Of a stretch of DNA of 64,000 bases, positions 52,743 to 58,867 are shown piece by piece; position 1 is the first letter of the stretch, and the number at the start of each line of letters is the position of its first letter. The stretch lies in the NCBI RefSeq assembly GCF_000230715.2, contig NC_019792.1:1860001-1924000 (forward strand). Reading direction: 5' to 3'. Position numbers and translations under genes: made by a program. The DNA comes from Natronobacterium gregoryi SP2 (GTDB lineage Archaea > Halobacteriota > Halobacteria > Halobacteriales > Natrialbaceae). The notes beneath the pieces were generated by a model, which was not told the DNA's origin, made no database searches, and saw only the letters and a program-made list of their open reading frames with translations.

Positions 52743-54683
52743 TCAGAGCGTCTCGACGTCGAGAATCATGACGACTTCGCCCTCGCCGAGGACCGACGCA
52801 CCGCTGATTCCTGGCGTCCCGCTGAGTACACCTTCGAAGGGCTTGATGACGACTTCTTCCTGGCCGGCGACGTCGGAACAGCGGAGACAGACCTGTCTGA
52901 CCGAGTCTTTGATCCGGATGACCATGTCGTCGTCTGCGGGTTCGGTGTTGGGAACGTTCAGTCGCTCACCAAGCGACAACAGCGGGTAGACACGGTCGTC
53001 GTGAGTGACGGTGGGTCGCCCTTCGACCGTCTCGACGGTGACGTCGCCGAACTCGGAAATCTCGTCGATGTTCTTGATGGGAACGCCGTACTGCTCGTCG
53101 CCGATGGTGACAAAGAGCACGCGAACGATGGCGACGCTGACGGGAAGCATCAGCGTGATCGACGTCCCTTCGTCGGGTTCGCTCTCGACGTTGATCGAGC
53201 CGTCGACTCCGCGAACGACCTGCTCGACGACGTCCATCCCGACGCCACGGCCGCTGACCTCGGTGACTTCCTCGGTCGTCGAGAACCCGGGATGGAAGAT
53301 GAGGTCGTACACCTCGGAGTCGTCTAGCACACGGACTTCCTCTTCCGTCTTGATCCCCTGATCGACCGCTTTCTGGCGGAGTCCTTCGACGTCGAGACCA
53401 CGGCCGTCGTCCTCGACAGTGACCGAGACCCGGTCGCGTTCGCGTTCACCGATCAGCTTGATCGTTCCTTCGCGAGATTTCCCTTTCTTCTCGCGTTCTT
53501 CGGGCGGCTCGATCCCGTGATCGACGGCGTTGCGGATAAGATGCATCAGCGGATCGCCCAACTCGTTTAGAATCGACCGATCCATCTCGATGTCGATCCC
53601 CTCCATCTGGAAGTCGATCTCTTTGTCCTGCTTGCGCGAGATGTCACGAACGACTCGCGGGAAGTTACCGACGATCTTCTTCAGGGGAACGAGCCGGATC
53701 TCGAGGACGGTATCCTGGAGCCGCGAGGTGATCTTGCCGTGTTCCTCGAGTTCGTCTTCGGCCTCGACGAGTTCGTGGTCCTCGATGATCTTGTGGAGTT
53801 TGATCCGGCTGGTGACCATCTCCTCGACCTGGTTGTACAGTTGGTCGATCTGTTCGACGTCGACCCGGATCGACTCGACTTCCTGGGTACTGTGGGTGGT
53901 GTCGGAATCGTCGGTCGATTCGTCGTCGGCAGTGAGTTCGTCGGCCACGTCCTCGACGCTGACGTCGTCGACGTATCGGTCGTCCTCGTAGAAGTCCACG
54001 ACATCGTCACTGCTGACGCTCGCATCGGTCAACAGGTACACGTCGATTTGACCGTCGAACTCCTCCGACTCGATCGTCTCGTCGTCGGGAACGGTCCGGA
54101 CCAGTTCGTACTCGTTTCTGGTCGAGTCGAGCACGAACATCGCATCGACGTGTGGAGCCTCCTCGTTGGCGATCGCAAGCGACACTCGCAAGAGTTCCTC
54201 GTCGTCGCCCAGATCGACCTCGTCGGCCAGTTCGTCGACCGGCATCTCGCGGGAACCGACCGTCACACCGTCACGTTCCGCCTCCGTCTCGGTGGCTGCA
54301 TCTCCGGTCTCGATCGACGATCGGATCTTCGTGATCGTCGCCTCCGGATTGGTCTCGGTCTCTCCGTCGTCGGAAATCTCGTTGACCATCTCCTCGAGGA
54401 GATCGACCCCGCTGAAGATGAGGTCCATCCGTTCACCGGTGACGGCGAGTTCCCCGTCGCGGATCTCGTCGAGCAAGTCCTCGATCGCGTGGGCCAAGTT
54501 ACTCGCCTTGGAGTAACCCATCACCCCGAAGTTCCCCTTGAGGTTGTGTGCGACCCGGAAGACTGTCTCGATGGCCTCGGATTCCTCCGGATCGGGGTCG
54601 TCCTCGAGTTCTAGCAGTGCGTCGTTGAGTTTTCGGATGTCTTCCTTGCTCTCTTGGACGAACGTCGAGGTGGCGTCGCTCAT
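52743..54683 (-). CDS. cheA: Chemotaxis histidine kinase CheA
   Basis: This 646-residue CheA has P1 HPt with phospho-His46 (VAHNLKGNFG), a variable P2 region, a P3 dimerisation helix pair (IDQLYNQVEEMVTSRIKLHK), a P4 ATPase with N box HLIRNAVDHG, G1 DDGRGLD and G2 GRGVGMDVV, and the P5 CheW-like regulatory domain. It phosphorylates CheY and CheB. The ATG at 54683 overlaps the cheB stop by 4 bp, so cheB-cheA is one coupled operon. Confidence 0.95.
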   Translation of the reverse strand: MSDATSTFVQESKEDIRKLNDALLELEDDPDPEESEAIETVFRVAHNLKGNFGVMGYSKASNLAHAIEDLLDEIRDGELAVTGERMDLIFSGVDLLEEMVNEISDDGETETNPEATITKIRSSIETGDAATETEAERDGVTVGSREMPVDELADEVDLGDDEELLRVSLAIANEEAPHVDAMFVLDSTRNEYELVRTVPDDETIESEEFDGQIDVYLLTDASVSSDDVVDFYEDDRYVDDVSVEDVADELTADDESTDDSDTTHSTQEVESIRVDVEQIDQLYNQVEEMVTSRIKLHKIIEDHELVEAEDELEEHGKITSRLQDTVLEIRLVPLKKIVGNFPRVVRDISRKQDKEIDFQMEGIDIEMDRSILNELGDPLMHLIRNAVDHGIEPPEEREKKGKSREGTIKLIGERERDRVSVTVEDDGRGLDVEGLRQKAVDQGIKTEEEVRVLDDSEVYDLIFHPGFSTTEEVTEVSGRGVGMDVVEQVVRGVDGSINVESEPDEGTSITLMLPVSVAIVRVLFVTIGDEQYGVPIKNIDEISEFGDVTVETVEGRPTVTHDDRVYPLLSLGERLNVPNTEPADDDMVIRIKDSVRQVCLRCSDVAGQEEVVIKPFEGVLSGTPGISGASVLGEGEVVMILDVETL

Positions 54684-55744
54684 GACGACCACCCCCGGAA
54701 GGCGTTGACGACTCCTTCGGCGATCCGGTCTTCCGGCAGGACCATGTCGACGTCGACCTGCTCGGCAGCGACCTTCGGCATGCCGTAGACCCTGGACGTC
54801 TTTTCGTCCTGCACGATAGCCTTGCCGCCGGCTGCTTTGATCTCGGCCAGCCCGTCGGCACCGTCTGCTCCCATCCCAGTCATGATGACACCAGCGAGAT
54901 TGCCGGTGACCGTCTCCGCCGCGGTCTCCATCGTTACGTCGATTGCCGGCTTGACGTTGTGTCGCTTGGGACCGTCGTCGTGGGTGACGGTGAGTTTCCC
55001 GTTCGAAAAGCTCGAGACGGCGAGATGGTAGCCACCCTTTGCCAGGACACCCTCGCCGGCACCGATCGTGTCGCGACCGGCTGCCTCTCGAATGTCGTAG
55101 TCGGTTCGTTTGTCGAGCCGTTCCGCGAAACGTTCCGTGTAATGGTCAGCCATGTGTTGGACTATGAGGATTCGTAACCCTGCGCGCTCGGGTAGTTCGG
55201 ACAGGACCCGCTCGACGACGCGCGGGCCGCCGGTCGATGCACCGATCACGAGCGTTGGCTCGCGTGGAAACGCCTCGGTCGCGTCGACGTCGACCGTCGC
55301 CAGTTCGTCGGCCGTCGATCTCTCGTTGCCGGAATCGGTACTGCCGGAGATGTCCGCCTTGGCGACCGCACGAACCTGTTCGACGATCTCGTCCTGTTTC
55401 GACCAGATCGGGACGGAGTTGTCGCCGCTTGGCTTCGCGATGAAGTCGACCGCACCGGCCTCGAGCGCCTCGAACGTGGCTTCTGCGTTCTTGGTCGTCT
55501 GTGAACTGATGACCAGCATCGGCGTCGGCCGTTCGTCCATCACCTGCTCGATTACTTCGTGGCCCGTGAGACCTGGCATCTGGATGTCGACCGTTGCGAT
55601 GTCGGGCTCGACGTCGGTGATCAGCTCGACGGCTTCGGTGCCGTTTTTCGCACGACCGATCACGTCGATCCCACCGTCTTCGAGAATCTTCCCGAGGGTT
55701 TCACGCATTACTGCAGAATCGTCTGCGATGACGGCTCGGACCAT
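54680..55744 (-). CDS. cheB: Protein-glutamate methylesterase CheB
   Basis: This 354-residue CheB has an N-terminal receiver domain (phospho-acceptor D53 in TVDIQMPG), a linker of about 35 residues, then the methylesterase domain. The catalytic Ser170 is in GASTGG, His197 in VQHMADH and the Asp in GMGADG. It removes methyl groups from the transducers. It is translationally coupled to cheA. No cheR partner is present in the window. Confidence 0.95.
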   Translation of the reverse strand: MVRAVIADDSAVMRETLGKILEDGGIDVIGRAKNGTEAVELITDVEPDIATVDIQMPGLTGHEVIEQVMDERPTPMLVISSQTTKNAEATFEALEAGAVDFIAKPSGDNSVPIWSKQDEIVEQVRAVAKADISGSTDSGNERSTADELATVDVDATEAFPREPTLVIGASTGGPRVVERVLSELPERAGLRILIVQHMADHYTERFAERLDKRTDYDIREAAGRDTIGAGEGVLAKGGYHLAVSSFSNGKLTVTHDDGPKRHNVKPAIDVTMETAAETVTGNLAGVIMTGMGADGADGLAEIKAAGGKAIVQDEKTSRVYGMPKVAAEQVDVDMVLPEDRIAEGVVNAFRGWSS

Positions 55745-56089: not shown

Positions 56090-56207
56090 GGGACTGAATT
56101 GCCAGGTTCGCTTGATAAAGAATTCGGCCGATCCAACCCGCTGGGAGGCCTACGAGATACAGTTGGCCGTGTGAGTTATGTGGTCAGAGTTGAAACGGTC
56201 CAGGAGA

Positions 56208-56996
56208 ATGGCGGAACCCGCTCGGCTGTGTGTAACAAACCAGAAAGGAGGTGTCGGAAAGACGACTGTCGCGATCAACCTGGCCGGGGCCCTGAACGAT
56301 CGCGGACAGGACGTTCTCTTCGTCGATATCGACCCGCAGGGAAACGCGACTGAAGGACTCGGGCTCCTCGAGGCCTACGACGCCGAGCCGCCGACGTTGC
56401 TCGACGCTCTCGTCGATCCCGACGACGTCTCCGCCGAGGAGATCGTCTACGACCATCCGGAGATGGACGTCGTCGCGAGTAACGTCGATATGAACGCCGC
56501 TTCGTCGGCGCTATCGTCGGCGGAAAACGCCGAGATGCGTCTCGATCGGCTGTTGTCGCAGCTCGAAGACGGATACGACTACGTCGTCGTCGACTGCCCG
56601 CCACACCTCGGAGTTATCACCGACAACGGACTGTACGCGGCCAGAAATCTCGTTATCCCGGCACTCGCCGAGCCGACGAGCAAGCGGTCGATCGAGTTGC
56701 TGTTCGACTACGTCGGCGCACTCGAGATGGATCACGACGTGACGATCGAACCGTGTGCACTGGTCGCAAATCGGATCGAGAACACGAACGCAGCCGCGGA
56801 GATGCTCGCGTGGTTCGACGATGCGCTGCCGGAGACGCCGATCTACCGGATTCGCAAGCGGGTCGCCTTCCAGCGTGCGTTCACGGACGGACACTCAGTC
56901 TTCGAGGCCGACGAGGAAATCGACATGAGCGAGGTGTTTGCATCGATGGCAACAAAACTGGACGAACGGCTTGCGAAAGAGGAGGTATCGGCATGA
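56208..56996 (+). CDS. ParA/MinD-type ATPase of the taxis cluster
   Basis: This 262-residue P-loop ATPase has the deviant Walker A KGGVGKTT at 13-20, switch I DPQGNAT and Walker B VVVDCPPHLG. It is a ParA/Soj-type protein, and no parB gene or membrane-targeting helix is adjacent. The start at 56208 is the first Met giving a family-like N-terminus. It overlaps the following CheW-like gene by 4 bp. Location in the che cluster suggests positioning of chemosensory arrays, as bacterial ParC does; this is inference. Confidence 0.85.
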   Translation: MAEPARLCVTNQKGGVGKTTVAINLAGALNDRGQDVLFVDIDPQGNATEGLGLLEAYDAEPPTLLDALVDPDDVSAEEIVYDHPEMDVVASNVDMNAASSALSSAENAEMRLDRLLSQLEDGYDYVVVDCPPHLGVITDNGLYAARNLVIPALAEPTSKRSIELLFDYVGALEMDHDVTIEPCALVANRIENTNAAAEMLAWFDDALPETPIYRIRKRVAFQRAFTDGHSVFEADEEIDMSEVFASMATKLDERLAKEEVSA

Positions 56997-58144
56997 CCGA
57001 CGACAGGGCGCGTCGCATCCGCGAGATGCGAAACCGGGCGAATCCCGCACGATCCGCCTCGAACGACACCGAAGACACTGACGACGGTTCCCCCGACCAA
57101 TCCACCGACGAATCAGAAGACGTCACCAACGAGAAGCGTTCGGTCGACGGATCGACGGGAACCGACGAGACCACAGCTAACTCGAAAGCAGCGAACGAAG
57201 ACGACTCGAAAGCGGAGCCAGCGGCTACCGACGGGACGTCAGACGAGTCGCCCGCGACGAACGAAGCCGCGTCCACGGACTGTGACGAAGCCGACACTGA
57301 CTCCACCGACGAGACTGCTCCCGAGTCCTCGATAGACGATACTGACGCGTCCGCGTCTCCGGCAGACGATACTGACGCGTCCGCGACCGAAGACGCGGAC
57401 ACGGACAGCGCTACGGGAGACGTCTCCGAGTCGGAGACCGACTCCGGCGCTGTCGACACCGAACTCGAGCAGAACATCGACCCGGCGTTGCGGGGTGCCA
57501 TCGCGGGCACTGGTGGCGTAGACTCTGCTACGGGTGACGAGGCAACCGTCGACGCCACGGTCGTCGGCGCGGCCAGTGAGAGCTACGATGACGCAGCGAT
57601 CGGTCGTGGGAAAGAAGTTTTCGAGCGTGGCGACTCGTTGATCGCGTCGGCACACGACGACGAGAATACGATCCAGATGCTCGAGTTCTATCTCGAAGAG
57701 AGTCGGCACGCGATCGAGATAGATCTCGTCAGTGCGATCGTCGAGATGAAAGACATCACGCGGTTCCCGCGTGGGCCGGACGCGATCGACGGCGTCACTG
57801 ACCTCCGGGGCGAGATCACGGGCGTGCTCGATCCGACGGTCCTGTTGGACGTCGAGCGAAACGAACTCTCGGACGACCACTACATCGTTGTCATCGAACG
57901 CGACGACGAGCAGAAAGTCGGTATTCGCGTCTCCGACGTCTCCCAGGCCGTGACCTATCGCGAATCCCAAATCGACGAGACGGCGGATGCAATGGAGGAA
58001 GACGCCGCCGCACAACACAAGTTCGTCGAGGGAATCATCAAGAAAACCGAAGAAGACGAGACGACGCTTGTCACGTGGCTCGACATCGACAGCATTATCG
58101 AGAAGGTTGCGACTCAACGCACCGTCGCCGGGACAGAAGCGTAA
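56993..58144 (+). CDS. CheW-like protein with long disordered N-terminus (ParP-like)
   Basis: This 383-residue protein has about 200 acidic, low-complexity residues after a short basic start (RARRIREMRNRANPARSASN). It ends in a CheW domain at about 226-375 (NTIQMLEFYLEESRHAIEID, VTDLRGEITGVLDPTVLLDV). A DDTDASA segment is duplicated at the DNA level (about 57334 and 57364). It is coupled to the ParA gene by an ATGA overlap. ParA followed by a CheW-like protein with a long disordered N-terminus is the architecture of bacterial ParC/ParP. It could instead be an unusual CheW adaptor. Confidence 0.85.
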   Translation: MTDDRARRIREMRNRANPARSASNDTEDTDDGSPDQSTDESEDVTNEKRSVDGSTGTDETTANSKAANEDDSKAEPAATDGTSDESPATNEAASTDCDEADTDSTDETAPESSIDDTDASASPADDTDASATEDADTDSATGDVSESETDSGAVDTELEQNIDPALRGAIAGTGGVDSATGDEATVDATVVGAASESYDDAAIGRGKEVFERGDSLIASAHDDENTIQMLEFYLEESRHAIEIDLVSAIVEMKDITRFPRGPDAIDGVTDLRGEITGVLDPTVLLDVERNELSDDHYIVVIERDDEQKVGIRVSDVSQAVTYRESQIDETADAMEEDAAAQHKFVEGIIKKTEEDETTLVTWLDIDSIIEKVATQRTVAGTEA

Positions 58145-58432: not shown

Positions 58433-58867
58433 TTACACGCGAACGTCCGTTGGATTGATCCAGAGCACGAAATCGTCGTCACGGCGGATGACACCTGCGA
58501 TTCCGTCGCCCTCGACGGAGGTGTCGACCTCCTGGAGCTGGATCTCTCGGACCTGGTTGACTTCGTCGGCGAGCCAGCCGATCCGTTCTTTGGAGTCTTG
58601 CTTTCGCTTGAAGACGATAATCCTGCTGCCGAGCGTCTCTCCGTCGTCCTCGCCGAAGATCTTCCGCAGGTTGACGATCTTCGTCGTCTCCCCGCGGAGA
58701 TCCATCACCCCCTCGACGTGGTCGGCCGTATTCGGAACCGCGGTCAGATCCGCGGTATCGACGATCTCTGCGATGTAGCCGATGTCGACGCAGTAGCGGT
58801 TCTCCCCGAGTGCGAACTCGAGGACGTTCGTACGTAGGTCGTCCGTGGTCTGTTTGGTCGTAGACAT
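58433..58867 (-). CDS. cheW: Chemotaxis coupling protein CheW
   Basis: This 144-residue protein is a single CheW domain (NVLEFALGENRYCVDIGYIA, MDLRGETTKIVNLRKIFGED). It couples transducers to CheA. It is a separate, convergent transcription unit after the ParA/CheW-like pair. Size and motifs are standard for archaeal CheW. The gap to 58144 holds no gene. Confidence 0.93.
   Translation of the reverse strand: MSTTKQTTDDLRTNVLEFALGENRYCVDIGYIAEIVDTADLTAVPNTADHVEGVMDLRGETTKIVNLRKIFGEDDGETLGSRIIVFKRKQDSKERIGWLADEVNQVREIQLQEVDTSVEGDGIAGVIRRDDDFVLWINPTDVRV

Follow-up and report, generated by a model that had tools for sequence, protein, structure and literature searches.

The ParA–CheW Gene Pair and Its Locus

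The window, i.e., the whole 64-kb stretch of DNA analysed here, belongs to a haloarchaeal genome made of one contig (3.79 Mb) and carries two consecutive reading frames overlapping by 4 bp, the first encoding a ParA-type ATPase and the second a protein with a CheW domain (hereafter the adaptor). According to Pfam, genes for CheF, CheC/CheX, CheY, CheA and CheB precede the pair, while a plain cheW follows it. The features discussed below are the following (window coordinates):

52743..54692, − strand: CheA (Pfam)
54680..55744, − strand: CheB, divergent neighbour of the pair (Pfam)
56162..56207, + strand: probable promoter of the pair, a block conserved 5′ of parA whose TATA-like GTTATGTR stands some 27 nt ahead of the ATG
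56208..56996, + strand: ParA-type ATPase, 262 aa (Pfam AAA_31, 146 bits)
56244..56267, + strand: deviant Walker A motif of the ParA, KGGVGKTT, near-invariant in the ParA alignment
56993..58144, + strand: CheW-domain adaptor protein, 383 aa, its start codon lying within the ParA stop (ATGA)
56993..57037, + strand: arginine-rich N-terminal peptide of the adaptor, 15 aa, MTDDRARRIREMRNR; proposed ParA-binding, ATPase-activating end
57038..57670, + strand: acidic disordered linker, about aa 16–226 (15% identity over aa 16–160; pLDDT under 50)
57473..57517, + strand: short conserved linker stretch NIDPALRGAIAG, motif ALxGAIA (ortholog alignment)
57674..58105, + strand: CheW domain, proposed array-integrating cargo domain (PF01584, 77.5 bits; CheW fold; tree lineage)
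58433..58867, − strand: plain CheW, a paralog other than the fused domain (Pfam, CheW tree)

The first protein belongs to the ParA Walker-box family, as it combines a deviant Walker A motif (KGGxGK[ST]T) with a ParA fold domain, and its second Pfam match is CbiA (72.8 bits). The earliest in-frame ATG of parA is found at 56178, and since many orthologs show an in-frame TAG just past this upstream ATG, 56208 is the likely start. Immediately 5′ of parA, a block of about 45 bp is kept in nearly all loci of the window's type (type I, see below) and was counted in 30 of 30 distinct loci; it is probably the promoter of the pair. The spacing of its TATA-like element would suit a leaderless transcript.

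The preliminary description of this DNA had a ParA gene overlapping by 4 bp a gene for a protein with a long disordered N-terminal part and a C-terminal CheW domain, next to cheA and cheB and distinct from the plain CheW at 58433. The reading frames, the Pfam matches of the pair and of its neighbours, the structural model of the adaptor and the CheW tree agree with it on every point, coordinates included. Moreover, the ATGA overlap and the three-part adaptor recur in all 20 loci of our family survey with an orthologous ParA, hence the pair is not due to chance. The same genome features a second che cluster at 512–521 kb (a 1201-aa CheA frame, CheB, CheY, two CheC-like genes and a short CheW), beside which the probes used matched no ParA.

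Anatomy of the Adaptor Protein

Across 25 type I orthologs, the mean pairwise identity of the adaptor reaches 82% for aa 1–15 and 78% for the CheW domain, with only 15% for aa 16–160 and about 0.42 for aa 161–226. Several synonymous codons are used at the invariant arginines of the N-terminus; therefore, the peptide is conserved at the protein level. The Pfam CheW domain spans aa 228–371 (77.5 bits vs. a curated cut-off of 23.5). As a single-sequence AlphaFold model of the adaptor had a pLDDT of only 41.5, the structure was predicted with AlphaFold2 from a 23-row alignment. In this model, a helix is predicted at aa 3–15, the pLDDT is mostly under 50 over about aa 16–222 (some 210 disordered residues), and a CheW fold begins at aa 226, the best PDB match in Foldseek being CheW 2ch4 (E 5e-9). 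The ALxGAIA stretch (57473–57517) sits inside the otherwise unconserved linker and is possibly a second interaction motif.

Distribution of the Pair across Haloarchaea

That the pair should co-occur with che genes across relatives was also part of the preliminary description, and this expectation is borne out in 61 genomes of the family. There, we defined a window-type che cluster by the CheA closest to that of the window (best match 53–100% identity, over 480 bits). Such a cluster is present in 24 of the 61 genomes, 23 of which have a ParA–CheW pair (20 of type I and 3 of type II), vs. none of the 37 genomes devoid of the cluster (Fisher p 6e-16, genomes being counted as independent despite their kinship). 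Within two genera (G040/G014 and G049/G028), the pair and the window-type cheA are either jointly present or jointly absent. The sole exception (G020) has no ParA; its window-type cluster includes a CheW of the fused-domain lineage that is short and unfused.

Across the order, 243 genomes were sampled and pairs were scored by ParA matches adjoining CheW matches; type I was found in 14 genomes and type II in 3, while type III occurs in 32 of the 42 genomes of a Haloferacaceae-like family (f4). Most of these 243 haloarchaea lack any ParA–CheW pair, which implies that the pair is not generally required for chemotaxis. The four-bp overlap is present in every type I locus checked.

Plasmid Partition Relatives

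The nearest other ParAs recovered by tblastn against plasmids are those of haloarchaeal plasmids, which are 50–59% identical to the window ParA. Downstream of most of these plasmid genes, and generally overlapping them by 4 bp, comes a gene for a partner of 129–268 aa, composed of a RAxRLRxRR-type N-terminus, an acidic linker rich in Ser, Glu and Pro, and a common C-terminal domain of about 70 aa. Examples are the modules of Hbt. salinarum pHS4 (WP_049892788/WP_012289596) and of Halocatena (WP_247995737/WP_247995738), each consisting of a ParA and a “hypothetical protein” partner. The partners of the nearest plasmid ParAs start with MSxxxRAxRLRxRR, with another end domain than the adaptor. The window pair displays the parts that define such a module (ParA gene, small overlap and RAxRLRxRR-type partner N-terminus), but the plasmid-specific GTYMYL...EFEKNRHFFPLVV end domain is missing from the adaptor and CheW stands in its place. 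Plasmid modules and che pairs are thus alike in their small gene overlap, N-terminal peptide, acidic linker and ParA (50–59% identity for type I, 76% for type II), whereas they differ in the end of the partner, which in plasmids has neither a Pfam match nor a CheW domain, and in the location of plasmid modules outside of che clusters.

The pattern R[AS].R[IL]R..R lies within the N-terminal 30 residues of 24 of 25 type I adaptors, 7 of 7 type III adaptors and 11 of 16 plasmid partners (those without it go with more distant ParAs), vs. 0 of 762 acidic ORFs in the background, a ratio that is descriptive only because the pattern was chosen with these sequences in view. The C-terminus of the plasmid partners has no Pfam name and only matches families of unknown function in PHROGs, plus one weak RecT-like match, so that a DNA-binding role for this domain is an assumption; a search for the plasmid partner in viral contigs returned nothing. 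Regarding the ATPases, R226 and R228 are invariant across the aligned plasmid and che ParAs, in a basic stretch (RKR/RER) near aa 226–228, and these conserved C-terminal residues, along with the family itself, suggest that the ParA may bind DNA. A further plasmid ParA, on pNRC100 (L141:2031-2795; 46% identical to that of the window), lies directly after gvpO of the Halobacterium salinarum gas-vesicle cluster, with no evident partner gene.

Probable Repeated Recruitment of Partition Modules

The type II pair of Halostagnicola has its own plasmid relatives. Its che ParA is about 38% identical to the window ParA and 76% identical to the Halocatena plasmid ParA, and it branches within the plasmid-B clade of the ParA tree (support: 100/100). 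The N-terminus of the Halostagnicola CheW fusion is almost letter-for-letter that of the Halocatena plasmid partner (aa 1–40, local score of 141 vs. a maximum of 49 over 500 shuffles), whereas no alignment is seen between the C-termini of the two proteins (22 vs. a shuffled mean of 26.5). Since the first 22 residues of type II are net acidic, the arginine-rich rule fails in its simple form for this type.

In the ParA tree, types I and III form separate clades, with plasmid ParAs between them. AU tests rejected both a single ParA origin of types I and II (p = 0.00066) and one common che origin for the ParAs of all three types (p = 4e-7). For types I and III, one shared origin was not rejected (p = 0.094), and we therefore claim only two ParA origins. 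In the CheW tree, a single lineage unites the fused domains of types I and II with short CheWs that adjoin cheY–cheB in other families, while fused type III domains lie outside of this lineage, near plain CheWs. Altogether, these trees and tests lead to at least two recruitments of a ParA and, judging by the CheW lineages, to three apparent fusions with a CheW. On this basis, it is likely that plasmid-partition modules were repeatedly recruited to partition chemosensory arrays, each time through a cognate ParA-binding N-terminus joined to CheW, in convergence with the ParC/ParP system of Vibrio.

The type III pairs examined are located outside of the che cluster, which in these genomes has a plain cheW beside cheB and cheA. 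In 4 of 7 Haloferacaceae-like loci, the type III pair is next to an ArlD/E-like gene (PF04659, 105 bits), and in 3 of 7 a salactin gene (PF25229, 619 bits) is also beside it; hence, an actin homolog, an archaellum-type protein, a ParA and a CheW are gathered in one locus (L151:4153-7923, also L153 and L163, and partly L152).

At face value, the layout shared with ParC/ParP might point to a true member of that family acquired from bacteria. We regard such an origin as very improbable, because the nearest relatives are haloarchaeal plasmid ParAs and non-CheW partners with the same N-terminal peptide, and because the Halostagnicola pair arose separately. The archaeal counterpart of ParC/ParP put forward in the preliminary description is well supported as a functional analogy, in view of the anatomy and the co-occurrence, but is not supported as common descent, the relatives found being haloarchaeal plasmid ParAs and their partners, with at least two origins of the arrangement within haloarchaea.

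Which CheW Was Fused

In a Halobacterium-like genome (G162), the CheW located by cheY–cheB–cheA belongs to the fused-domain lineage, and the CheW found about 3.6 kb past arlI belongs to the lineage of the plain CheW of the window (58433), which by gene order corresponds to the CheW near the arl genes. H. salinarum has cheW1 in its che cluster and cheW2 near its fla genes, CheW1 binding both receptors and CheA, and CheW2 binding receptors only (PMC3579733). As the gene order of G162 matches that of cheW1/cheW2, synteny suggests that the fusion carries a CheA-binding type of CheW domain (H. salinarum CheW1 lineage). An equivalence with CheW2 was dropped, since gene order puts the fused domain at the cheW1 position, beside cheY–cheB–cheA.

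Given a domain assigned by gene order to the receptor- and CheA-binding CheW1 lineage (PMC3579733), the adaptor could act mainly in signalling as a CheW, or compete in the manner of CheV, with the ParA either uninvolved or partitioning DNA rather than arrays. This is rather improbable in our opinion: the four-bp overlap is maintained in all type I loci checked, the N-terminus is as strongly conserved as the CheW domain, and a ParA has been paired with a matching N-terminal peptide repeatedly, in separate lineages.

Proposed Mechanism and Comparison with Known Systems

We consider it quite probable that the pair is a ParA-driven module for positioning and partitioning the chemosensory array, derived from a plasmid module by a swap of the partner's end to CheW. 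Briefly, the CheW domain of the adaptor would sit in the receptor/CheA array, while the disordered linker would hold the arginine-rich N-terminus outward. ParA-ATP, presumably bound to the nucleoid through non-specific DNA binding, would capture the array via this peptide, which would dock on ATP-bound ParA dimers and trigger ATP hydrolysis. Hydrolysis followed by release would then result in net movement of the array, in its spacing or in its inheritance at division. As for its origin, such a device would stem from a haloarchaeal plasmid module (a ParA and a partner made of peptide, linker and end domain) in which a CheW domain replaced the end of the partner.

ParA/MinD ATPases are activated by short extensions of positive charge attached to the N-terminus of cargo domains; TlpT, from a chemoreceptor cluster, is among the examples (PMC7993993). 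The plasmid TP228 ParB consists of a disordered ParA-binding N-terminus and a DNA-binding domain, and its N-terminal helix brings an arginine close to the active site of ParA (PMC5393062). In the window adaptor, the N-terminus is predicted to be helical and its arginines are conserved. PomX, McdB and ParG/ParB-type activators are likewise built from a cargo-binding domain that is extended at its N-terminus by a positively charged segment (PMC7993993), but serve other cargo. In Rhodobacter sphaeroides, the ParA PpfA places a chemoreceptor cluster over the nucleoid and the N-terminus of its partner TlpT is positively charged; however, TlpT is itself a receptor, whereas the carrier in the window is a CheW-domain protein without a receptor domain (Pfam).

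The window pair resembles Vibrio ParC/ParP in that a ParA-like ATPase and a CheW-like adaptor are encoded side by side within a che cluster and, by layout alone, in a protein with a putative N-terminal ATPase-interaction region, a long linker and a C-terminal CheW-like AIF domain (PMC5706961). The AIF residues of Vibrio ParP include L209 (receptor) and W305 (CheA-LID). Differences are that the closest kin of the window ParA, in a comparison with plasmid and haloarchaeal sequences, are haloarchaeal plasmid ATPases, that the N-terminal peptide of the adaptor is common to plasmid partners, and that no HubP equivalent was identified. We found no description of a ParA–CheW pair in haloarchaea in the openly readable literature and file it, as a pair that may work like ParC/ParP, under a further form of ParA-based array positioning.

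The main rival of a nucleoid-based module is a polar anchor, where a landmark protein would hold the ParA at the pole and arrays would be captured there via the CheW adaptor, as with ParC/ParP and HubP. It would fit the polar arrays of H. volcanii in early growth (PMC6509185), an adaptor layout that is the same as that of ParP (PMC5706961), and the salactin and ArlD/E-like genes adjoining type III pairs. Yet, the ParA has its kin among plasmid-partition ATPases, for which use of the nucleoid is expected, and the type I cluster shows no landmark gene, which makes an anchor of this kind unlikely.

A nucleoid-based module of this sort bears on how archaea place and inherit their sensory arrays. 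First, it provides a concrete ATPase–adaptor couple, with a 15-residue peptide open to mutation. Second, a segregation machine of selfish elements would have become a device of cell organisation by a swap of cargo domain, apparently more than once, which would support the notion of modular activators derived from the ParA/MinD systems of bacteria. MinD4 and MinD2 also affect the position of chemosensory arrays in a haloarchaeon, Haloferax volcanii (PMC11588486), but belong to the MinD branch; no CheW partner of the window kind is described for them there, nor is a cargo adaptor named in the texts consulted. With the arrays of H. volcanii dependent on these two proteins (PMC11588486), the ParA may be one layer only. 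A MinD-like gene also lies between arlI and a CheW gene in a Halobacterium-like genome (L180:8321-9301), its protein ending in a possible membrane helix.
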